Part shown: in pieces, positions 14,183 through 31,990 of the stretch
How the letters are laid out: each line of letters begins with the position of its first letter
How positions within the stretch are numbered: position 1 is the first letter of the stretch
DNA from: Spirochaetia bacterium
GTDB lineage: Bacteria > Spirochaetota > Spirochaetia > DAHUYW01
Reading direction: 5' to 3'
Assembly (NCBI GenBank): GCA_030041455.1
Contig: JASHNV010000078.1
Coordinates: 1-42,164, forward strand
DNA length: 42,164 nucleotides
Position numbers and translations under genes: made by a program
The notes under the pieces: model-generated
Seen by the model: the letters and a program-made list of their open reading frames with translations, nothing else
What the model was told of the DNA's origin: nothing
Database searches by the model: none

Positions 14183-14788
14183 ATGAAGACAAACTGGGTC
14201 GAGCGACTCTGGATCGACGGGCCGTGGCGGATTCCCTTCCAGGTGAACGCGATACGCTCCTTCAAGCGCCTGCACGACATGGCGCCGCCGCGGCGGGTGC
14301 TTGAGATCGGCTGCGGCAGGGGCGTGGGCGCGAGGCTCATCCTCGAGGCGTTCCGGCCGGAGCGCCTCGAGGCGGTCGACATCGACCCCGCCATGATCCG
14401 CCGCGCCCGGCGCCGGCTCGCCCCGGAGCTCGGCTCGCGCCTCGTCTTCCAGGTCGCCGACGCCGAGGCGCTCCCCTTCCCGGACCGAAGCATGGACGCG
14501 GTCTTCAACTTCGGCATCATGCACCACCTCGAGGACTGGAACCGGGGCGTCCGCGAGATCGCGCGGATGCTGAAGCCCGAGGGAGTCTTCTATTTCGAGG
14601 AGTTCTATCCTGCGCTCTACGCGGGCCCGGTTTTCAAGCACGTGCTCGTCCACCCGAGGGAGAACCGCTTCGACGGCCCGCAGTTCCGCTCCGCTCTCGA
14701 AGGGGAGGGGCTCCGCCTCGTCGAAGGCTATCGGGAGACGCGCTACTCGATCATCGGCGCGGCGACCCGCCTTGCCTCAGGCGGGTAG
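14183..14788 (+). CDS. Class I SAM-dependent methyltransferase, paralogue of the gene at 24814
   Basis: A 201-residue Rossmann-fold methyltransferase. Motif I is VLEIGCGRGVGARL, the acidic residue closing strand 2 is in AVDIDPAMI, and motif II is DAVFNFGIMHHLEDW, followed by EIARMLKPEGVFYFEEFYPALYA. It is strikingly similar to the 197-residue protein at 24814-25407 of the UbiA/EboE operon. Shared stretches include the N-terminal MK.NWVE, the motif I region, HHLEDW.RGVREI, FYFEE.YPALYA and LVHPRENRFDGP. The two probably act on related substrates. It has its own strong promoter and is not in an operon, so its target is unknown; a lipid or quinone is plausible from the paralogue's setting. Confidence 0.88.
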   Translation: MKTNWVERLWIDGPWRIPFQVNAIRSFKRLHDMAPPRRVLEIGCGRGVGARLILEAFRPERLEAVDIDPAMIRRARRRLAPELGSRLVFQVADAEALPFPDRSMDAVFNFGIMHHLEDWNRGVREIARMLKPEGVFYFEEFYPALYAGPVFKHVLVHPRENRFDGPQFRSALEGEGLRLVEGYRETRYSIIGAATRLASGG

Positions 14789-21627: not shown

Positions 21628-22653
21628 ATGGAAAAGACGGCTATGAAAAAAGCGGGCCTCGTCGAGCTCGCTTCCCGGACGGAGACGATCGGGAGTCGCG
21701 ACGGGTCGAAGGGCGCGGTCCCGCCGGTCGACCGAGACGCCGAGCTTCTCGACGCCTATTCGCAAGCCGTGGTGAACGTCGTCGAGGAGGTCGGGCCGAC
21801 CGTCGTCGCGATCGGAGTGAGGGACGGCGGGAGCGAAGGGGCGGGGTCGGGGGTCATCTTCGCCCCCGACGGCTTCATCCTGACCAACAACCACGTCGTC
21901 GAGAAGGCGCGGGAGATCTCCGTTTCCGTGACCGACGGCCAGCGTTTCGCCGCGAACCTGATCGGCACCGACCCGGATACCGACCTCGCGGTCGTTCGGG
22001 TTTCGGGAAGCGGCTTGCCCTCGGCGGCGTTCGGCGACTCCGATCAGCTGCGCGCGGGCCAGCTCGTGATCGCGATCGGGAATCCCCTCGGCTTTCAGAA
22101 TACCGTCTCGACGGGTGTCGTTTCCGCCCTCGGCCGGAGCCTGCGGAGCCCGCAGGGCAGGCTCATCGAGCACGTCATCCAGACCGACGTGAGCCTGAAC
22201 CCCGGCAACTCGGGCGGCCCCCTCGTCGACAGCCGCGGCCGCGTGGTGGGGATCAACACTGCGATGATCTTCAACGCTCAAGGGTTGAGCTTCGCCGTCC
22301 CCATCAACACCGCCCGCTACGTCGTCGGGGAGCTCGTCACGAAGGGCAAGGTTTCCCGTTCCTACATCGGCGTGATGGCTCAGGTCCGGCCGATCAACCG
22401 GCGGCTTCAGAGGATTCTCAAGCTTCGCTCCCCGTCGGTGGTCGAGGTGATGGAGGTCGAGACGAAGGAGGCCGCCTGGGCCGCGGGCATTCGGGCGAAG
22501 GACGCGATCTACTCGGCGGACGGAGAGGGCGTGAGCACGATGGACGACCTTCACCGGATCCTTTCGCGCTTCGCCCCCGGGAGCCCGTGCGAGATCGGCA
22601 TTCTGCGGAACGGCGAGACGCGGAAGATCACCGTCGTCACGAGCGCCCGCTAG
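21628..22653 (+). CDS. HtrA/DegP-family serine protease with PDZ domain, no signal peptide
   Basis: A 341-residue trypsin-like protease. The catalytic triad is H89 (TNNHVVEK), D119 (DTDLAVVR) and S195 (NPGNSGGPL). The oxyanion loop and LSFAVPINTARYVV precede a single PDZ domain (about 245-340: SRSYIGVMAQVRPINR ... AAGIRAKDAIYSADGEGVSTMDDLHRIL). Family members degrade misfolded proteins and are usually periplasmic or membrane-anchored. This one has no signal peptide and no N-terminal membrane helix (MEKTAMKKAGLVELAS), so it is probably cytoplasmic. The start is either the leaderless ATG 21628 or ATG 21643. Its TAG stop shares CTAG with the stop of the convergent EboE gene. Confidence 0.92.
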   Translation: MEKTAMKKAGLVELASRTETIGSRDGSKGAVPPVDRDAELLDAYSQAVVNVVEEVGPTVVAIGVRDGGSEGAGSGVIFAPDGFILTNNHVVEKAREISVSVTDGQRFAANLIGTDPDTDLAVVRVSGSGLPSAAFGDSDQLRAGQLVIAIGNPLGFQNTVSTGVVSALGRSLRSPQGRLIEHVIQTDVSLNPGNSGGPLVDSRGRVVGINTAMIFNAQGLSFAVPINTARYVVGELVTKGKVSRSYIGVMAQVRPINRRLQRILKLRSPSVVEVMEVETKEAAWAAGIRAKDAIYSADGEGVSTMDDLHRILSRFAPGSPCEIGILRNGETRKITVVTSAR

Positions 22654-23867
22654 AAGAGACTCTCGCGCGCCCAGCGGATCTCGCGGGCGATTCCCGACTC
22701 GACGTCCAATCCGGCGAAATCTCCGGTCTCGCTCAGAACGCTCCACGTGTAGGTCTCGAGAATAGCCACCGGGCAGAGGGCGCGCTCCGCGATGTATCGC
22801 ACCCCGGCCACCGTGTCAGGGACGGTGGTCCCGAGCGGCCCGATCTTCTCGACGAAGAGGGGCAGGTGGAAATGGATGCGTATCTCCGCGCAGGCGAGGA
22901 GCTCCTCGGGGGCGGCAAGCGCGGGCTCGAGGTCCTGCGCCCGGAAGACAACCCTGCCTCCGCCGTCGGTCCCGATCACTTGGTGGAGGTAGGGCGAGCG
23001 GGCGTATCGGGCGAGCTTCGCGAGCCCCTCGGGCCGTTCCGCCGGCCGCTCGAGGCGGATCGCGCTCGTCGCGTGGACCTTCCCGATCGAGACGCCGGAT
23101 TCCGCGAGCCTTCGTGCCGAATCGACGAGATCCTCGAACTCGATCGAGAGGTGGCAGCAGTCGAAGGTCACCGCAAGGTGGCGGCGGAGGACCTCCTCCG
23201 CCTTCGGCCCCGAAAGCGCTCCGCGCTTCCGGAGGTAGCGCGCGCCCGCGCCCAGGAGGTGACGATCGAAGAAGACGATCGCCTCGTCGGTGCTCTCGAT
23301 GGTGCAGCCGGGCTCGGGCTCGATGCACAGGGAAATGCGCCTGCCGGTCCGCTCCTCGATCTCGAAAAGGAAGGAGGCCATGGCCGCGAACGCCTCGGCG
23401 GTGGCGTCGAGTCGCTCCGCGTCGTGGCCGAACGCCTTGAACGAGCCCGGCGACGTGCTGATGGCTCCCGACCGCCCCTCCGGGAGGAGCTCGGCGAGCA
23501 GCTCGGCAAGCCGCTTCGTGTAGAGAAGACGGCCCTCTTCGAGCCACGTGGGCCGGTAGGCCTCCTCCTTCACGCGCCGGCCGTGAAAGTCCTGCGGCGA
23601 GAAGCCGTTGATCGTGAGTACCGGCAGGTCGTTGCCCTTCAGCGTCTCGATGAGGCGCTCCCTCGCGCCCGGGTCCCGGGCCGCCTCCTCGGTCGCGGCC
23701 ATTCCGAGCCTGAGCTCGAAGCCCTGGAACGATCCGGACAGGGACCTGCGAATGCGCGACAGGGGCCCCTGTAGCGTCGCGATCACCTCCGCGAGCGTTT
23801 CGCTTCGAAAGACGTTCGTCGCATAGCCCAGCTGCATCGAGCGGGCGGCTGAAGTTGCGTCACTCAT
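22650..23867 (-). CDS. EboE-like metabolite-traffic TIM-barrel protein
   Basis: A 405-residue xylose-isomerase-like TIM barrel resembling EboE, a gene of the ebo clusters. Typical features are the opening MQLGYATNVFRSETLAEVIATLQ, the strand LPVLTINGFSPQDFHG, RRVKEEAYRPTWLEEGRLLYTKRLAELLAELLPEG, ISTSPGSFKAFG, LCIEPEPGCTIESTDEAIVFF and VTFDCCHLSIEFEDL. The metal-site acids and histidines of the barrel (EPEP, DCCHLS) are present. ebo clusters are linked to scytonemin precursor export in cyanobacteria and similar clusters occur in other phyla, but the chemistry is unknown. Here it is the last gene of a five-gene operon, 14 bp after a UbiA-type gene (the EboC partner). ATG 23867 has GGAG upstream. 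Confidence 0.82.
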   Translation of the reverse strand: MSDATSAARSMQLGYATNVFRSETLAEVIATLQGPLSRIRRSLSGSFQGFELRLGMAATEEAARDPGARERLIETLKGNDLPVLTINGFSPQDFHGRRVKEEAYRPTWLEEGRLLYTKRLAELLAELLPEGRSGAISTSPGSFKAFGHDAERLDATAEAFAAMASFLFEIEERTGRRISLCIEPEPGCTIESTDEAIVFFDRHLLGAGARYLRKRGALSGPKAEEVLRRHLAVTFDCCHLSIEFEDLVDSARRLAESGVSIGKVHATSAIRLERPAERPEGLAKLARYARSPYLHQVIGTDGGGRVVFRAQDLEPALAAPEELLACAEIRIHFHLPLFVEKIGPLGTTVPDTVAGVRYIAERALCPVAILETYTWSVLSETGDFAGLDVESGIAREIRWARESLF

Positions 23868-23881
23868 GTGGTGTCTCCGAT

Positions 23882-24796
23882 TTACAGTGAAGCGATCCCC
23901 TTGAGCGCGAGCGCGGCGGCAAGGAGCGCGGCCGGGTAGTACGAGGCCCAGTTGAACAGCCTGAAAATCACGGAACGGGACGTCGAGGCGCTCAGACCGA
24001 CCGCCGGAACCACGAGCAGCCACGCTCCGATCGCGACGGAGGCGACGGCGTAGGGGATGGAGCCGCGTCCGGGCGCCGAAACGATGAAGGCGACGTTGAG
24101 CGCGATGGCGACCGACACGGAAAAGAACGCGAGCCTCCCCGACCATGTGGGCCCGAGCAGGACCGGGATGGTCTTCGCTCCGAGAGCCCGGTCTTCGTCG
24201 ATGTCCGTCCAGTCGGAGGGGATGTTCTGTCCGCCCATCTCCCAGAAAAACAGCCAGAGAAAAAGAAGGAGGAGCCGGGTCGAGAGCGGACTGCGATCGA
24301 CCGCGAAGACTCCGGCGATCGGACCGAGCGTCTTCACCACTCCGCTCACGAAAACGCGAAGCGCCGTGAGCCGATACAGCAGGCAGTAGCCGACCTCGAG
24401 CGCGATCGAGGCGATGAAGATGGCGAATGACGCGGGGCTTAGGAGAAAGGAACCGACCGCGGCGACCAAGCCCCACGCGCCGGCCCAGACGAGCGCGTGC
24501 CTCGTCCTCAGCATCCCCGAGGCGAGGGGATGGCGCGGGAGCGTAGCGTCGAGATAGCCGGGCGCCTCGCTCCATCCCGCGCCGTATCGCTTGCGGTCCG
24601 CAATACGGTCGACGAGATCGTTCACCGCGTAGCCGCTCGTGTAGGCGGCAAACACCGTGACGAGACCGATGAGCATGATCTCGGCGCTCGGCAGGCGTCC
24701 GAGCCAGAGGAAGACGACGAGAATCGGACAGGCCATGTCGAGGAGGCCGTGCGGCGTCCGCGACAGGGCGAACAGCAGCCTCAAGGTCGAAAGCAT
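23882..24796 (-). CDS. UbiA-family prenyltransferase (EboC-like)
   Basis: A 304-residue integral membrane enzyme with about eight or nine hydrophobic helices. The first aspartate-rich motif is NDLVDRIAD (N59, D60, D63, D67), which binds the prenyl diphosphate through magnesium, and the second is DWTDIDED after GGQNIPS. Such enzymes attach polyprenyl chains to aromatic or cyclic acceptors, as in quinone, chlorophyll or haem O synthesis. The neighbours (EboE-like downstream, two UbiE/MenG homologues and a methyltransferase upstream) point to an EboC-like enzyme or a prenylated quinone-like product. It starts 17 bp after the methyltransferase gene. Confidence 0.9.
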   Translation of the reverse strand: MLSTLRLLFALSRTPHGLLDMACPILVVFLWLGRLPSAEIMLIGLVTVFAAYTSGYAVNDLVDRIADRKRYGAGWSEAPGYLDATLPRHPLASGMLRTRHALVWAGAWGLVAAVGSFLLSPASFAIFIASIALEVGYCLLYRLTALRVFVSGVVKTLGPIAGVFAVDRSPLSTRLLLLFLWLFFWEMGGQNIPSDWTDIDEDRALGAKTIPVLLGPTWSGRLAFFSVSVAIALNVAFIVSAPGRGSIPYAVASVAIGAWLLVVPAVGLSASTSRSVIFRLFNWASYYPAALLAAALALKGIASL

Positions 24797-24813
24797 GGTA
24801 CCCGATCGCTCCG

Positions 24814-25407
24814 TTACGGCTTGAGCGCCACGGCGACGACCCGGTGCGCCGTCTCGGCATAGCCGTCGAGAAGCCTGAAGCCGACGAGCTTGAGCTCGTC
24901 GCGAAGTCGCGGCCCGTCGAAGCGGTTCTCCCTCGGATGGACGAGGAGGCGGCGCGTGACGGCGTTCGCGTAGAGGGCGGGATAGATCTCCTCGAAATAG
25001 AAGGCGCCGCCCGGGCGAAGCACCCGGTGAATCTCCCTCACGCCGCGCTGCCAGTCCTCGAGATGGTGGAGGATTCCGAAGGTGAAGACCGCGTCGAGCG
25101 ACCTGTCCGCGTAGGTCAGGCGCTGCGCGTCCGCGACGCCGAAGACGACGTCCTTCATGCCGAGGAACTCCTTCCGCTTCGCGAGCCTTCGGACCGCGCC
25201 CTCGTCGATGTCGACCGCTTCGAAGCGGCGGGGCGCGAAGGCCCGCCGGATAAGCCTGACCCCGAACCCGCGCCCGCAGCCGATTTCAAGCACCTCGGCG
25301 CCCGGGGGAAGGTCGCGGATCTTCTTGAAGAGCTCGGTCTCCCGGCGGAGCATCCTCAGGCGCGGAGGGCTGTTCAGCCAGACCTTCTCGACCCAGTTCG
25401 GCTTCAT
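24814..25407 (-). CDS. Class I SAM-dependent methyltransferase, paralogue of the gene at 14183
   Basis: A 197-residue Rossmann methyltransferase: motif I VLEIGCGRGFGVRL, AVDIDEGAVRRL, VFGVADAQRLTYADRSLDAVFTFGILHHLEDW and VLRPGGAFYFEEIYPALYA. It is closely related to the 201-residue protein at 14183 throughout, including LVHPRENRFDGP near the C-terminus. The ATG at 25407 overlaps the stop of the upstream UbiE-like gene (ATGA), and the UbiA gene follows after 17 bp, so it belongs to the prenyl operon. A small hydrophobic substrate is likely. Confidence 0.88.
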   Translation of the reverse strand: MKPNWVEKVWLNSPPRLRMLRRETELFKKIRDLPPGAEVLEIGCGRGFGVRLIRRAFAPRRFEAVDIDEGAVRRLAKRKEFLGMKDVVFGVADAQRLTYADRSLDAVFTFGILHHLEDWQRGVREIHRVLRPGGAFYFEEIYPALYANAVTRRLLVHPRENRFDGPRLRDELKLVGFRLLDGYAETAHRVVAVALKP

Positions 25408-26276
25408 CCCGGCGTTCCGCCGCGCGGCTTGTGTCCGCGATAGATCTTCGCCATCCCGTAGGTGAGTGAGACGACGCTCGTGCGCGTGAATCCCGCCGCC
25501 CGGATCTCCGCGATGAAGCGCTCCTCGGAGGGGAAGACGTACACCGTCTCGGCGAGGTAGGTGTAGGCGTAATCGGTCCCCGAGAGCCAGTTCCCGTAGA
25601 GGGGCATGATGTGGTCGAAGTAGTAGCGGTAGGCCGGCCCCACGATCGGGATCTTCGGAAAGCCGAGCTCCATGATCTGGAGCTTGCCGCCCGGTTTGAG
25701 CGCTCGGAAGCACTCGCGGAGGACCCGGTCGCGCTCGACGATGTTACGGATCCCGAACGAGATCGTGATCGCGTCGAATTGCGCGTCGCCGGCCGGAAGG
25801 GCGCGCAGGTCGCCCACGTGAAGCTCGATGCGATCGCGCAGCCGCCGCTCGCCGATCTTGCGTCGAGCGACGCGGAGCATCCGTGGGGAGAAATCGATGC
25901 CGACGACCCTGACGCCGGGATATCTGCGGCAGGCGCGAATCGCGATCTCGGCGGTCCCGATCGCAAGATCGCCGAGGACCGTTCCCTCCTTGAGCCTGAG
26001 GTAGCGCACGAACATGTTCCGCCAATGGGTGTCGATCCACATCGCGAGGAATCGGTTCTGGAGGTCGTAGGCGGAGGCGATGGTGTCGAACATCCGCCTG
26101 ACCTTCTCGTGCTCCATGAGCCCTTTGAGCCTCTTGGGGCCGAGGGCGGTCTCCCTCCAGCCGAACAACACTCGACCCATCGCCCTCGACACCGGCGCGC
26201 GCTCCCGCTCCGTCTGCTGCCTGTTGCCGCTCATGTTCCTCCCCGCTTTTTTTTCATTCGCCGGCGCGATCTTCAT
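25404..26276 (-). CDS. UbiE/MenG-family methyltransferase, divergent copy
   Basis: A 290-residue member of the UbiE/MenG/COQ5 C-methyltransferase family. The N-terminal 50 residues are an extra basic segment. The core has VRRMFDTIASAYDLQNRFLAMWIDTHWR (family motif RxMFDxIAxxYDxxN), a modified SAM motif GDLAIGTAEIAI where DVACGTGD is usual, and ITISFGIRNIVERDRVL, the FGxRN signature. The C-terminal FPSEERFIAEIRAAGF is also typical. Methylation of a quinone ring or related prenyl-aromatic is the expected reaction. It overlaps the first gene of the operon and the next methyltransferase, each by four bases (ATGA). The altered motif I may reflect a different substrate. Confidence 0.88.
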   Translation of the reverse strand: MKIAPANEKKAGRNMSGNRQQTERERAPVSRAMGRVLFGWRETALGPKRLKGLMEHEKVRRMFDTIASAYDLQNRFLAMWIDTHWRNMFVRYLRLKEGTVLGDLAIGTAEIAIRACRRYPGVRVVGIDFSPRMLRVARRKIGERRLRDRIELHVGDLRALPAGDAQFDAITISFGIRNIVERDRVLRECFRALKPGGKLQIMELGFPKIPIVGPAYRYYFDHIMPLYGNWLSGTDYAYTYLAETVYVFPSEERFIAEIRAAGFTRTSVVSLTYGMAKIYRGHKPRGGTPG

Positions 26277-26986
26277 CGGCTCCCGACGTACAGGTAGGCG
26301 ATTCCGCCGCTTAACCGCTCGCTTCCTACCTCGCGAAGCCCCGCCGTCCTCATGATCTCAAGCAGCTCCGCGGGCTTGAGAAAGGCGGACACCGACTCGT
26401 AGAGATAGGAGTACGACGTCCGGTAGCCCGACAGGAGGCCGCCGAGCGCCGGCATGAACGAGCGCAAGTACCACGCGTAGAGACTGCCGAGGAGCCCCTC
26501 GGGCGGCGGCGCGAACTCGAGAATGAGGACGCGCCCTCCCACCCGGGCGACGCGCGCCATCTCGCGAACGCCCCGCGCCGGGTCCGAGAGGGTTCTCAGG
26601 CCGAAAGAATTGCATACGACGTCGAAGGACCGGTCCGCGAAGGGAATCCCGAGGGCGTCGCCCGGAGCGACCGTGATGGAGTCGGAAAGCCCCGCGCGCC
26701 GCACCTTCGAGCGGGCGACCTCGATCATCGCCTCGGAGAGGTCGATGGCGTCGACCGAGACGCCGCGAAAGCGCCTCGCGAGCGCGATCGCGACGTCCGC
26801 GGTGCCGGTGCAGACGTCGAGAACGCGGGAGGACGGCCGGACCTCGCTTCGCTTCACGAGCCTTTTCCGCCACCGCCTATCGATGTTGAGCGTGAACAGG
26901 TGATTGAGCCGGTCGTAGGTCGGAACGACCCGCTGGAATACCTCTTCGACGTTGAAGCTTTCTTTCTGTTCCGGCATTCCCGCCAT
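26273..26986 (-). CDS. UbiE/MenG-family methyltransferase
   Basis: A 237-residue methyltransferase of the demethylmenaquinone/ubiquinone family, first gene of the five-gene operon. It has VFQRVVPTYDRLNHLFTLNIDRRWRK (family N-terminal motif), a standard SAM motif I VLDVCTGTADVAIALA, GDALGIPFADRSFDVVCNSFGLRTLSDP and FALEF-like VLILEFAPPPEG. The next gene is a second homologue with a different motif I, an unusual pairing. AGGAAACTAGG before ATG 26986 supplies the ribosome site. No menA/ubi core genes are in the window, so it may be a ring methylase for menaquinone or for the operon's own product. Confidence 0.9.
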   Translation of the reverse strand: MAGMPEQKESFNVEEVFQRVVPTYDRLNHLFTLNIDRRWRKRLVKRSEVRPSSRVLDVCTGTADVAIALARRFRGVSVDAIDLSEAMIEVARSKVRRAGLSDSITVAPGDALGIPFADRSFDVVCNSFGLRTLSDPARGVREMARVARVGGRVLILEFAPPPEGLLGSLYAWYLRSFMPALGGLLSGYRTSYSYLYESVSAFLKPAELLEIMRTAGLREVGSERLSGGIAYLYVGSR

Positions 26987-27083
26987 CCTAGTTTCCTGAA
27001 GATCCTACCATATTTCCGCGCGGATGCTAGCGTCCGAGCCGGCGATTCTTGACTTTTCGGCGTGCTTCGACTACGAACAGATC

Positions 27084-27221
27084 ATGCCGTTCTCCGTCGT
27101 GATGTTCGTTGCGCTTGGCTTCGCGCCGAACGGCGAGCCGCTCGACCGCTACGGCGCGCTCGAGGACGAGACCGAGCTCGCTCCCTGCCTGGACATGCTC
27201 GATCCCCCCGCGGCGCGGTAG
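27084..27221 (+). CDS. Possible small protein (45 aa), uncertain
   Basis: An open frame of 45 codons (MPFSVVMFVALGFAPNGEPL ... LDMLDPPAAR) ahead of the NIF3-like gene. TTGACT (27049-27054), 17 bp and TACGAA (27072-27077) place transcription start at the ATG, a leaderless layout seen repeatedly here. The composition is only moderately protein-like, and the stretch may instead be the leader of the NIF3-like gene. No family recognised. Confidence 0.3.
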   Translation: MPFSVVMFVALGFAPNGEPLDRYGALEDETELAPCLDMLDPPAAR

Positions 27222-27233
27222 CCGGGAAGCGCG

Positions 27234-27554
27234 ATGTACCAGCTCGTCTTCTACGTTCCGCAGGAGCAGTGCGAGGCGGTCAAGAGCGCGCTGTTCGCGA
27301 AGGGCGCGGGCCGCTACGCCAACTACGACAGTTGCTCGTGGCAGGTTCTCGGCACCGGGCAGTTTCGACCCCTCGCGGGAAGCAAGCCCTTCCTCGGATC
27401 CCGCGGAAAGGTCGAGCATGTATCCGAGTACCGGGTCGAGATGGTGTGCGCGGAGGAGGTCCTCGATGAGGTCCTTGAGGAGCTTCTCAGAGTTCATCCC
27501 TACGAGGAGCCGGCGTACGGCGTGTACAAGATTCAAACGATTCTCGACCGGTAG
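27234..27554 (+). CDS. NIF3/YqfO middle-domain protein
   Basis: A 106-residue CutA-like ferredoxin-fold protein matching the inserted domain of YqfO/NIF3 proteins as a stand-alone form. It starts MYQLVFYVPQEQCEAVKSALFAKGAGRYANYDSCSWQVLGTGQFRP, the family signature, with the second half EYRVEMVCAEEVLDEVLEELLRVHPYEEPAYGVYKI (HPYEEPAY is diagnostic). GGGAAG precedes the ATG. Such proteins are structurally characterised, but their function is unknown; metal or nucleotide binding has been proposed. It is followed by the thioredoxin-reductase-like gene. Confidence 0.9.
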   Translation: MYQLVFYVPQEQCEAVKSALFAKGAGRYANYDSCSWQVLGTGQFRPLAGSKPFLGSRGKVEHVSEYRVEMVCAEEVLDEVLEELLRVHPYEEPAYGVYKIQTILDR

Positions 27555-28732: not shown

Positions 28733-29767
28733 GTGAACCGAAAAGGTGTCTGTTACGACGTGGGTCGTGTGATGATGGGTCGCAACTGGCGCCCGAACTT
28801 TGATCCGAAGATCGTCCGCCGTGAGCTCGAGATCATCAAGAACGACCTCCACTGCAACGCCGTGCGGCTTCAGGGGCTTGATTTGGGGCGGCTTGAAATC
28901 GCCACTGCGGATGCTCTTGAAGGAGGGCTCGAGGTGTGGTTCTCTCCGGAAATGTGGGATCAGGAGCCGGGTGAAACGCTCCGCTATCTCAAGGACGGAG
29001 CTCTAGTCGCCGAGCAGTTCAGACAACGTTGGCCTCGTCGCATTGTTTTCAGCGTCGGGAGCGAGGTTACTCTCTTCACACAAGGGTTTTTCGAAGGGAG
29101 GAATGTCCTCGAGCGGCTTAACCATCCAACTTTCTGGGAAACCGCAAAGGCAGGAAAGCAAAACGCACCGCTCAATGAGTTTTTGCGCCAAGCGGTCTCC
29201 TCCGTTCGGAAGATATTTCAAGGGCCGATAACGTATGCCTCGGTAGGATTGGAGTCGGTGGACTGGGCTCCATTCGATATCGTTGGAGTGGACCTCTACC
29301 GGGACAAGCGGACGAGAGAGCTCTATCCGAATCTCATCAAGCGGTATCTTGGGTTTGACAAGCCTCTCGCCAACATGGAGTTCGGTTGTTGCACATTTCG
29401 GGGGGCTGAGGATCTCGGCGGGCGGGGATGGGATATCGTGGATTGGAGTACAACGCCGCCGCAGCTAAAGGCTAATTATGTCTATGACCAGTCTGTCCAG
29501 GCAGGCGAAGTCGCCGAGCTGCTAAGGATAAACGACGAGGCCGGAGTTGACGCTACCTTCGTCTTCACTTTCGTTGAGCCGGGAGCCGGGCTTGAAGACG
29601 ATATGGAACAGCAGTTGCTCAAGGCCATCAACTTCGACCTCGACCTCGTGCGATACAGTCTCGTGAAGAGCTTTCTCGATGGCGGCCATGGCTCCAGGTA
29701 CCCGGACATGCCATGGGAACCCAAAGAGTCCTTTAGGGCCGTCGCCGACTATTACGCGAGCCACTGA
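28733..29767 (+). CDS. TIM-barrel glycosidase-like protein, lower-GC gene
   Basis: A 344-residue protein with the look of a clan GH-A glycoside hydrolase. It opens NRKGVCYDVGRVMMGRNWRPNFD, has HCNAVRLQGLDLGRL, then VFSVGSEVTLFTQGFF (E as possible acid/base) and NMEFGCCTFRG (E as possible nucleophile), and ends VFTFVEPGAGLED. Homologues with this opening are sometimes annotated as abortive infection proteins in actinobacteria, a label not backed by anything visible here. The GTG at 28733 has GGAGG seven bases upstream. Codon use and GC are clearly lower than in the flanking core genes, suggesting acquisition. Substrate and role are unknown. Confidence 0.65.
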   Translation: MNRKGVCYDVGRVMMGRNWRPNFDPKIVRRELEIIKNDLHCNAVRLQGLDLGRLEIATADALEGGLEVWFSPEMWDQEPGETLRYLKDGALVAEQFRQRWPRRIVFSVGSEVTLFTQGFFEGRNVLERLNHPTFWETAKAGKQNAPLNEFLRQAVSSVRKIFQGPITYASVGLESVDWAPFDIVGVDLYRDKRTRELYPNLIKRYLGFDKPLANMEFGCCTFRGAEDLGGRGWDIVDWSTTPPQLKANYVYDQSVQAGEVAELLRINDEAGVDATFVFTFVEPGAGLEDDMEQQLLKAINFDLDLVRYSLVKSFLDGGHGSRYPDMPWEPKESFRAVADYYASH

Positions 29768-30064: not shown

Positions 30065-30842
30065 TGACCGCCCCAATTGCGAATACGTAGGTTAACCCTG
30101 CGGTCGAGAAGATCGTAGCGCAGAGCTACAAGCAAAGGGGGCGGTCGTGAAGAAGCATAGTATGGCGATTGAGAAGTTTGTAGGGCTTGACGTCCACGCA
30201 GCGACCATCGCGGTTGCGGTCGCCGAGCGGGACGGTGGGGAGGTGCGGGTGCTGGGGACGATCCCAAACCAGGAAGCGAGCATTCGAAAACTGGTGGGCA
30301 AGATCGGTCCGGTCGGGAGCTGGAAGGCCTGCTACGAGGCCGGTCCGACGGGGTACGTGCTCTCCTGGCAGCTTGAGAAGCTCGGGATACAGGTGGTGGC
30401 ACCGACGCTGGTACCGGTGAAGGCCGGCGATCGGGTGAAGACCGACCGGCGGGATGCCGAGCGGCTGGCGCGGGGGCTTCGGGCTCGGCCGGATTCCATC
30501 CGGCTGGGGGACCTGACGCCGGTGTGGGTGCCCGATGCGGCGCACGAGGCGCTCCGGGACCTGGTGCGGGCGCGGGAGGCGGCGAAAGCCGATCAGCTGC
30601 GAGCGCGGCACCGTCTTGGGAAGTTTCTGCTCCGCCATGGGCGGCGGCCGCCGGAGAAGATGCGGGCGTGGACGGCACAGTACCTGGACTGGATTCGAAA
30701 GGAGGTGAAGTTTCAGGAGCTCGCTCAACAGACGGCACTGGGGGACTCCCTCGATGAGGTGGATCACCAGACGCAGCGGATTGCTCGACTCGAGGGAGCG
30801 ATGGACGAGGCGATCGAGACGGCACCGGAGACGATGAGCCGG
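30065..30842 (+). mobile_element. Truncated IS110-family element
   Basis: The left non-coding part (30065-30146) and the first about 230 codons of an IS110-type transposase remain. The right part of the transposase and the right end are missing. TGACCGCCCC (30065-30074) pairs with GGGGCGGTC (30137-30145), enclosing about 62 nt ahead of the transposase; in IS110 elements this region can encode the bridge RNA. The exact ends and core dinucleotide cannot be defined. Confidence 0.6.
30147..30842 (+). pseudogene. IS110 transposase, C-terminally truncated
   Basis: The frame begins GTG 30147 and carries the N-terminal RuvC-like DEDD domain: FVGLDVHAATI (first Asp), CYEAGPTGYVL (Glu), VKTDRRDAERLARGL (two Asp), followed by the helical linker LVRAREAAKADQLRARHRLGKFLLRHG. 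After about ETAPETM the family sequence stops, the C-terminal transposase_20 domain with its serine nucleophile is missing, and unrelated sequence follows until a chance stop at 31002-31004. The protein is therefore not expected to catalyse recombination. Confidence 0.8.
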
Positions 30843-31075
30843 TGTCAACGAAATCGTGTCGCCATGAGGAGTCCTTCCGACCGCGTTCCGCTGGGTGATG
30901 CCGGTGAACGAGATTGCCACTCGCCCGGATCGAACGTGGTAGGCAACTACGATCGGCAGGCATGCGTTCCTTACCACCCTCGATGGCACTTCGTTCGCCC
31001 ATAAGCCGGGTCTCTGCGCCGCTCGCGCGTTGCCGAGACCCGATGCCTCCTTCATCGATCTTGTTAACCAGTGGC
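30843..31075. other. Unassigned sequence with strong stem, after IS110 break
   Basis: About 230 bp between the IS110 break and the metal-binding-protein gene. CGGGTCTC (31007-31014) and GAGACCCG (31035-31042) form a perfect 8-bp stem with a 20-nt loop containing GCGCCGCTCGCGCG. It may be the remnant of another insertion. Confidence 0.4.
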
Positions 31076-31990
31076 CTAATGCCGCGTGACTCCGGTAAGG
31101 GCTTTGCCAAGAGCATCAAGTTGGTTCTCCATCCACAACTGATAGTGCATGCCGGGGGGCATCGTCTCCATGACGGGCACTATCGGAATATCGAGTGCGC
31201 GGGCTTCATCCTGAAGTTTCGTCGTGATGGGCGTTATCGTTTGCTCGTTGTAAACAAGTATTTTGTCCTGGCGGCTCGTAAGCTGCTGCTCGGCGGCGAC
31301 CGCATCGGGCGGGGTAGGATCGTTGCCCTCGGCAATGGCTTTGTCGAAGGCCCAAGGCGTGAGAACGTTCAATCCGATCAGTGTGGACTGGTAGAGAAAT
31401 ATCGTCTCAGTCAGCCCAATGGGAGTCCCCGCGAACTTGGTCTTGAGGTCGGCAATCCGTGTATCAAGTTTTTCGATGTCAGACTTGAGACGTGCAAAAT
31501 TTGCGTCAAAGTCCGCGCGGTCGGCCGGATCCTTTTGTTTCATGTCATCCAGGATCTTCTGTGAAATTGCAATCACGTTGTCGGGGTTGTACCAAACGTG
31601 TTCGTTCTCATACAAATGATTCGGTGCGACGTCGTACGCCTTAATGACTAGTCGGTGGCTGTTTCCTGTTGTCGCCATAAGCTTGTCCATCCAATCGTCG
31701 TAACCATCGCCATTTTCAATCACTATGTCCGCGTCCGCTATCTGACGTGCATCGTCAACGTTCGCCTCATACTCGTGCGGGTCGAGATTCGGGTCGGAAA
31801 TGATGCTGAGGACGTGGACATGAATGTCCCCGATCTGCTGCACAAGGTCGCCGTACGTGTTCTCAGCCGCCACCACCTGCAAGCCTGAAGGCTTTTCACT
31901 CTCGCCAGTGGCGAAAGCAAACACAGCCGAAGAAAACAAAAAAGCTACGGCGAGAAGCCGTATAAGTCGTGCTCTCAAAGAATTCATCAT
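31076..31990 (-). CDS. Zinc/manganese ABC transporter substrate-binding protein (ZnuA-like)
   Basis: A 304-residue cluster A-I metal-binding protein. It starts with a signal peptide (RLLAVAFLFSSAVFAFA) followed by TGESEKPSG, a cleavage region like that of spirochaetal binding proteins. Metal ligands are visible as DPHEYE (His), NEHVWYNPDNV (His), ETIFLYQ (Glu) and probably an Asp or His near the C-terminus (MPPGMHYQ). It would capture Zn2+ or Mn2+ in the periplasm for a permease. GAGG precedes the ATG, and the outer-membrane protein gene ends 16 bp upstream. No permease or ATPase gene follows; the next sequence is the IS110 remnant, so the system appears incomplete or served elsewhere. GC and codon use are lower than the core. 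Confidence 0.88.
   Translation of the reverse strand: MMNSLRARLIRLLAVAFLFSSAVFAFATGESEKPSGLQVVAAENTYGDLVQQIGDIHVHVLSIISDPNLDPHEYEANVDDARQIADADIVIENGDGYDDWMDKLMATTGNSHRLVIKAYDVAPNHLYENEHVWYNPDNVIAISQKILDDMKQKDPADRADFDANFARLKSDIEKLDTRIADLKTKFAGTPIGLTETIFLYQSTLIGLNVLTPWAFDKAIAEGNDPTPPDAVAAEQQLTSRQDKILVYNEQTITPITTKLQDEARALDIPIVPVMETMPPGMHYQLWMENQLDALGKALTGVTRH

Follow-up and report, generated by a model that had tools for sequence, protein, structure and literature searches.

A spirochaetal operon linking EboE to a UbiA-superfamily prenyltransferase other than EboC and to UbiE-family methyltransferases: a candidate isoprenoid-lipid module

The ebo clusters (eboA-F) of Nostoc, Bacteroidetes, Leptospira and other bacteria have been the subject of several reports (PMC5133447, PMC9235831 and PMC6282210). 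Among quinone-producing systems, PMC9704088 describes in Porphyromonas the salvage of 1,4-dihydroxy-2-naphthoate (DHNA) by bacteria that keep the last two steps of menaquinone synthesis, and a recent survey (PMC13386864) points out that lineages without known quinone pathways may conceal undiscovered quinones. Here we analyze an operon of a Spirochaetia bacterium that has features of ebo clusters and of quinone pathways. The operon lies in a stretch of 42,164 nucleotides, hereafter the window, which is contig JASHNV010000078.1 of assembly GCA_030041455.1 (contig C118 in G000, a draft genome of 3.39 Mb that is 95% complete). Its five genes encode, in this order, two homologs of the quinone methyltransferase UbiE/MenG (UbiE1 and UbiE2), a small methyltransferase (MT3), a UbiA-superfamily prenyltransferase (hereafter UbiA) and EboE. 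We give an even chance to the reading that this locus is a genus-restricted isoprenoid-lipid module, and not an ebo cluster, with a methylated prenylquinone or a closely related meroterpenoid as the likeliest product. The core of this module would consist of UbiE1, the non-EboC UbiA and EboE, with UbiE2 and MT3 as additions found so far in the genome of the window alone.

The five genes are minus-strand open reading frames (ORFs) that fill positions 22650-26986, the successive junctions in the direction of transcription being two 4-nt overlaps followed by gaps of 17 and 14 nt. The coordinates, order, overlaps and short gaps reported for this operon in the first-pass annotation, which was made from the window alone, are all borne out, and profile searches confirm the family to which each of the five proteins had been assigned. 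A scan of 22400-27400 with the sigma-70 consensus found no promoter-like site (0.5 in shuffled sequences), and one terminator-like site was detected in the same interval against 3.2 in shuffles; since these scans gave no signal, the operon status is derived from gene packing alone. Downstream, the operon is limited by a convergent htrA-type gene, the end of which overlaps that of eboE by 4 nt.

UbiA and EboE had been taken in the first-pass annotation as hallmarks of a variant ebo cluster from which EboA, EboB, EboD and EboF are missing. These four proteins were sought in the genome of the window and in that of a sister species (G001, a draft that is 91% complete and the sole other genome of the genus in the search), with, as positive controls, two genomes from another genus in this phylum, both containing complete ebo clusters in the order D-C-A-B-E-F. 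No match was obtained for EboA (NF035938), compared with 124-130 bits in the positive controls, with EboG, a published alternative, outside the search. For EboB, the best score was 22.1 bits, compared with 532-548 bits in the controls, and EboF was not matched at all, compared with 789-842 bits. The single match to EboD, at 148.7 bits, is far below the EboD proteins of the controls (546-677 bits) and resembles the second matches in the control genomes (124-127 bits), which we interpret as AroB. The reported absence of EboA, EboB, EboD and EboF thus holds, and these profile and alignment searches extend it from the cluster to the whole genome, so that the idea of the missing genes residing outside the cluster in the same genome is rejected. 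Because all four are absent from both the genome and the sister species, the locus is not an ebo cluster.

Neither is its prenyltransferase EboC. The EboC model NF035940 does not match UbiA at an E-value of 0.001, compared with scores of 105.9-150.6 bits, all under the model cut-off of 250, for all four EboC proteins scanned, which came from the positive-control genus, Bradyrhizobium, Deinococcus and a verrucomicrobium. In a tree of 21 rows, the UbiA proteins of the window, the sister species and G433, a genome of another family, group together (100/99), apart from a clade of 12 EboC-type proteins (100/99). Taken together, the lack of a match and the separate clade exclude the identification of UbiA as EboC, and the proposal of an ebo variant on the strength of the two hallmark genes does not stand. 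Because the tree included few quinone references (and none for MqnP, chlorophyll, homogentisate or digeranylgeranylglyceryl phosphate (DGGGP) enzymes), it serves to exclude identities of UbiA and not to assign one.

EboE itself is a genuine member of its family, as had been suggested: it passes the curated model NF035939 with 335.4 bits (cut-off 250), while Pfam contains no match for it. The AlphaFold2 model of the protein (predicted local distance difference test score, pLDDT, 87.1) is a triosephosphate isomerase (TIM) barrel that is nearest to ketose 3-epimerases, with Z-scores of about 23; the top match, 5h1w, has a Z-score of 23.5 and a root mean square deviation of 2.4 over 255 aligned residues with 12% identity. 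Its candidate metal ligands are E183/E185, D236, H239, H265 and E371. Among the aligned EboE sequences that cover these positions, including canonical EboE and excepting locus L051, E183, E185, D236, H239, H332, H334 and E371 are invariant, and we regard this set as similar to the Glu-Asp-His-Glu metal site found in ketose 3-epimerases. The fold and the conserved residues are compatible with a metal-dependent activity of the ketose isomerase or epimerase type, which EboE would then possess. H265 was considered as a mark of a variant EboE and rejected, as this site is either H or Q across the family (H in L040, L041, L048, L049 and L052).

The preservation of EboE raises the possibility of a minimal ebo-like pathway, in which EboE would keep its ebo role and act on a head group derived from a cyclitol or ketose and another UbiA would replace EboC, yielding a prenylated polyol that functions as a carrier in the membrane, like the one proposed to export scytonemin. 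Apart from the curated-model score and the seven invariant residues that the protein has in common with canonical EboE, the tandem of eboE and ubiA resembles the frequent EboE-EboC tandem, and PMC5133447 reports replacement of EboC among ebo operons. Against this stand the absence of EboA, EboB, EboD and EboF, given that scytonemin was lost in every Nostoc ebo mutant studied, which implies joint action of the Ebo proteins (PMC6282210); the operon, moreover, contains neither a sugar-phosphate cyclase nor an inositol synthase, its UbiA is not EboC, and no UbiE was matched by the queries used in the canonical clusters examined. We regard such a pathway as quite unlikely.

The argument that UbiE1, UbiA and EboE belong together comes from the sister species. 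Its genome encodes an EboE ortholog (60% identical) in tandem with UbiA (59% identical), with an 18-nt gap between the two genes, and a UbiE1 ortholog (56% identical) encoded convergently to eboE at a distance of 67 nt. The flanks of this trio, namely nadB/nadC-like genes and a sensor-kinase-like gene (named by eye), are unlike those in the window. The linkage of the three genes thus survives both an inversion and a change of flanks, which argues that they form a unit. No such argument applies to UbiE2 or MT3: the UbiE2 ortholog (69% identical) is found alone on a separate contig (C174), and no ortholog of MT3 was detected in the five of nine candidate methyltransferase loci examined (C14, C51, C80 and C289 lay outside this set). 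The best match to MT3 in the sister species (L090) is the ortholog of another protein of the window, the MT3 paralog MT4, to which it is 69% identical, and the next match (L091) shows 46% identity to MT3. The view that three methyltransferases replaced the missing ebo genes is therefore overstated, since UbiE1 alone stays with EboE and UbiA in the sister species.

EboE was found in five of 392 genomes sampled from the phylum, namely that of the window and four of the positive-control genus, and in two of 394 genomes of the class, both from the genus of the window. UbiA had matches in 14 of the 394 class genomes at an E-value of 0.001, and four of these exceeded 100 bits: both genomes of the genus, G433 (38% identity) and G512. 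In G433 (L085:9648-12005), the gene for the UbiA relative starts 9 nt after a gene for a B12-type radical S-adenosylmethionine (SAM) protein, the best match of which, rSAM_slr0320, is below cut-off. A search of UbiA against plasmids with tblastn yielded no match.

A wider scan for EboE in named genomes recovered 17 loci. Besides the locus of the sister species, these include ebo loci of fully or partly canonical make-up and loci in which no ebo neighbor of EboE was recognized; the sister species apart, no UbiE was recognized beside EboE in these 17 loci with the queries used. EboE without any other recognized ebo gene in the examined flanks is present in L040, L047, L048, L052 and L053, which are verrucomicrobial, kiritimatiellal and planctomycetal contigs. 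At L051, no ORF was matched. In G234, near-identical ebo regions on contigs C23 and C24 (L035 and L036) reflect duplication or an artefact of the assembly. EboE matches were also obtained in 47 plasmid records, six of which were examined: five carry genes for dehydroquinate-synthase-like or inositol-phosphate-synthase-like, TatD-like, UbiA-type and phosphodiesterase proteins in ebo arrangements, and the sixth, which is unannotated, matches EboB, EboC, EboE and EboF. On the Streptomyces camelliae plasmid NZ_CP115301 (L098:4509-11549), an ebo-type cluster without a listed EboD contains an annotated inositol-3-phosphate synthase (myo-inositol-1-phosphate synthase in Pfam) and an extra sugar isomerase. 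Their presence in place of EboD hints that the prenyl acceptor of ebo pathways is a cyclitol.

As for the prenyltransferase, UbiA matches PF01040 with 105.3 bits (cut-off 34.2) and retains both aspartate motifs, NDLVDRIAD and DWTDIDED. None of the NCBIfam models of quinone and haem UbiA proteins reached its cut-off, the best scores being 68.9 bits (cut-off 269) and 55.9 bits (cut-off 180.8), and neither the profile scores nor the tree place UbiA firmly in a quinone or haem clade. A phmmer search against the sequences of the Protein Data Bank (PDB) found no match. The best Foldseek matches of its AlphaFold2 model (pLDDT 74.6) are DGGGP synthases and archaeal UbiA, and a membrane phosphoribosyltransferase also matches. 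The prominence of DGGGP synthases, the phosphoribosyltransferase match, and the rank of PRK12884 as the best-scoring NCBIfam model (68.9 bits) are compatible with a non-quinone lipid, that is, a DGGGP-like ether lipid or a prenyl-phosphate sugar, in which case EboE would provide or modify the sugar. We consider such a product very unlikely, given that no model of decaprenylphosphoryl-5-phosphoribose synthase is matched, that the matches to geranylgeranylglyceryl phosphate transferase models are weak, and that the UbiE neighbors favor a quinone-like ring.

Both UbiE homologs pass TIGR01934, the model of the UbiE/MenG subfamily, with 216.1 bits for UbiE1 and 209.3 bits for UbiE2 (cut-off 158.35), and miss the model NF052510 of the methyl-plastoquinone enzyme MpqE (168.8 and 156.6 bits, respectively; cut-off 335). 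They may still function as MenG despite a narrow miss of the UbiE equivalog model PRK00216.1-5 (200.7 and 203.7 bits; cut-off 216). No other full-length UbiE protein is encoded in the genome; of 15 matches, the remaining 13 are shorter. Given that UbiE1 and UbiE2 share 33% identity with each other and 31-33% with Escherichia coli UbiE, they are old paralogs, not a recent tandem copy. In an alignment with E. coli UbiE, motif I of UbiE2 reads GDLAIGTAEI instead of LDLAGGTGDL. The alteration noted in the first-pass annotation is thus real, and the form GDLA(I/V)GTAE(I/V) is common to UbiE2 and its sister-species ortholog, but the change is slight: the core D-x-x-x-G-T-x-(D/E) is intact, and a broken SAM site can be ruled out in favor of a mild, conserved variant. 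MT3 matches Methyltransf_11 of Pfam with 77.2 bits and is 54% identical to MT4.

Elsewhere in the genome, on contig C10 (L030:1657-6844), five consecutive genes comprise cydB, cydA, a gene for a MenA-like prenyltransferase, one for a cytochrome b5/DUF2231 protein and one for a polyprenyl synthase. This MenA-like gene is one of three in the genome, all of which score under the cut-off of every MenA model; a haem O synthase exceeds its own cut-off. The genome-wide searches for quinone pathways were aimed at MenD and MqnA/MqnD, with other Men and Mqn proteins, UbiC/D/X and 4-hydroxyphenylpyruvate dioxygenase outside their scope. No match to MqnA/MqnD (PF02621) was obtained, and the sole MenD candidate is an acetolactate synthase (769 bits). 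Thus, the genome encodes a bd quinol oxidase and both types of enzyme for the end of quinone synthesis, without a detected MenD or MqnA/MqnD. This gene content fits a scenario in which UbiE1, UbiE2 or both are MenG enzymes that act on salvaged DHNA prenylated by the MenA-like enzymes, as in the Porphyromonas precedent, and UbiA and EboE are unrelated proteins encoded alongside by chance; the lack of any other full-length UbiE homolog fits this scenario as well. The conserved linkage of UbiE1, EboE and UbiA in the sister species speaks against chance co-location, the low identity between UbiE1 and UbiE2 suggests two jobs, and the sub-threshold scores of the MenA-like proteins weaken the case for the prenylation step. 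Overall, this scenario appears unlikely.

Returning to the reading that we favor, an isoprenoid-lipid module with a prenylquinone or related meroterpenoid as its product, the following division of labor can be envisaged. UbiA, to judge from its superfamily and the two aspartate motifs, would prenylate a small head group that carries hydroxyl groups with a polyprenyl chain. UbiE1, and in the genome of the window also UbiE2, would then, to judge from their families, methylate the ring of the resulting (hydro)quinone-type compound, and MT3 could contribute one further methyl group. EboE, given its fold and conserved residues, would isomerize, epimerize or dehydrate a polyol or ketose precursor of the head group.

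Several observations weigh against this scheme. The linkage of the trio is known from two genomes of a single genus, both drafts (95% and 91% complete). The pairing of UbiA with EboE is not general, because no EboE was found in the class search in G433 or G512, the two genomes of another family with UbiA relatives (assuming that the same 394 genomes were drawn). None of the five genes of the operon encodes an enzyme that would form the head group, and UbiE1 could simply be MenG. Finally, the NCBIfam models closest to UbiA, PRK12884 and TIGR01475, are matched far under their cut-offs, and the structures most similar to it include DGGGP synthases in addition to UbiA, so that an aromatic acceptor is not established.

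The first interpretation of the locus, as a cluster that makes or moves a prenylated, methylated metabolite resembling a quinone or a sterol, is thus partly supported: a quinone-like product is still the best guess, and nothing in the analysis speaks for transport of a metabolite or for a sterol. A more specific version of the favored reading, which we deem unlikely as it stands, is a respiratory or redox lipid of a new type, namely a prenylated, multiply C-methylated quinone with a head group that EboE processes from a polyol or ketose and that does not come from the menaquinone pathways; this quinone would feed the bd quinol oxidase. If this were the case, EboE would be a head-group enzyme common to ebo and quinone-like pathways. 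No earlier report of a UbiE-UbiA-EboE unit was found among the papers listed in a literature search that did not extend to preprints and most subscription journals. A locus in which EboE is accompanied by a single prenyltransferase and at least one methyltransferase offers a much smaller system for probing the function of EboE and of ebo clusters, and a lineage of spirochaetes that has genes for a quinol oxidase and no detected MenD or MqnA/MqnD is a possible home of an unrecognized quinone or of quinone salvage.

The features discussed are listed in Table 1. Elsewhere in the window, an IS110-type transposase gene adjoins a znuA-like gene of lower G+C content (30147-31990), possibly an acquired segment, and a 344-codon ORF (28733-29767) encodes a protein without a Pfam or NCBIfam match.

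Table 1. Genes of the operon and two further features of the window
Feature	Position	Strand	Description
UbiE1	26273..26986	-	UbiE/MenG-family C-methyltransferase; first gene of the operon
UbiE2	25404..26276	-	UbiE/MenG homolog with N-terminal extension; 4-nt overlap with ubiE1
MT3	24814..25407	-	Small class I SAM methyltransferase, 197 aa; 4-nt overlap with ubiE2
UbiA	23882..24796	-	UbiA-superfamily intramembrane prenyltransferase, not EboC
EboE	22650..23867	-	Xylose-isomerase-like TIM barrel, 405 aa
htrA-type serine protease	21628..22653	+	Convergent neighbor, outside the operon; Trypsin_2 128.3 bits, TIGR02037 302.9 bits
MT4	14183..14788	+	MT3 paralog, outside the operon

Compared with known systems, the locus has in common with the ebo clusters a true EboE encoded beside a UbiA-superfamily prenyltransferase, and differs from them in the absence of EboA, EboB, EboD and EboF, in a UbiA that is not EboC and in the presence of UbiE-family methyltransferases. 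With the UbiA and UbiE steps of the ubiquinone, menaquinone and methyl-plastoquinone pathways, the operon shares the combination of a prenyltransferase of the UbiA superfamily and C-methyltransferases of the UbiE family; here, however, UbiE1 and UbiE2 miss the cut-offs of the MpqE and UbiE equivalog models, UbiA misses those of the quinone UbiA models, and EboE has no place in these pathways. The partial menaquinone pathway of Porphyromonas pasteri, with its DHNA salvage, likewise includes a MenA-type prenyltransferase and a UbiE-type methyltransferase without MenD, whereas the spirochaete, in which such salvage is hypothetical, has three MenA-like genes and two UbiE homologs, with UbiE1 linked to a pair of EboE and UbiA. 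With the TIM barrels of ketose 3-epimerases and xylose isomerases, finally, EboE shares its fold, but it is longer and, with the low sequence identity given above, belongs to a sequence family of its own, that of EboE.

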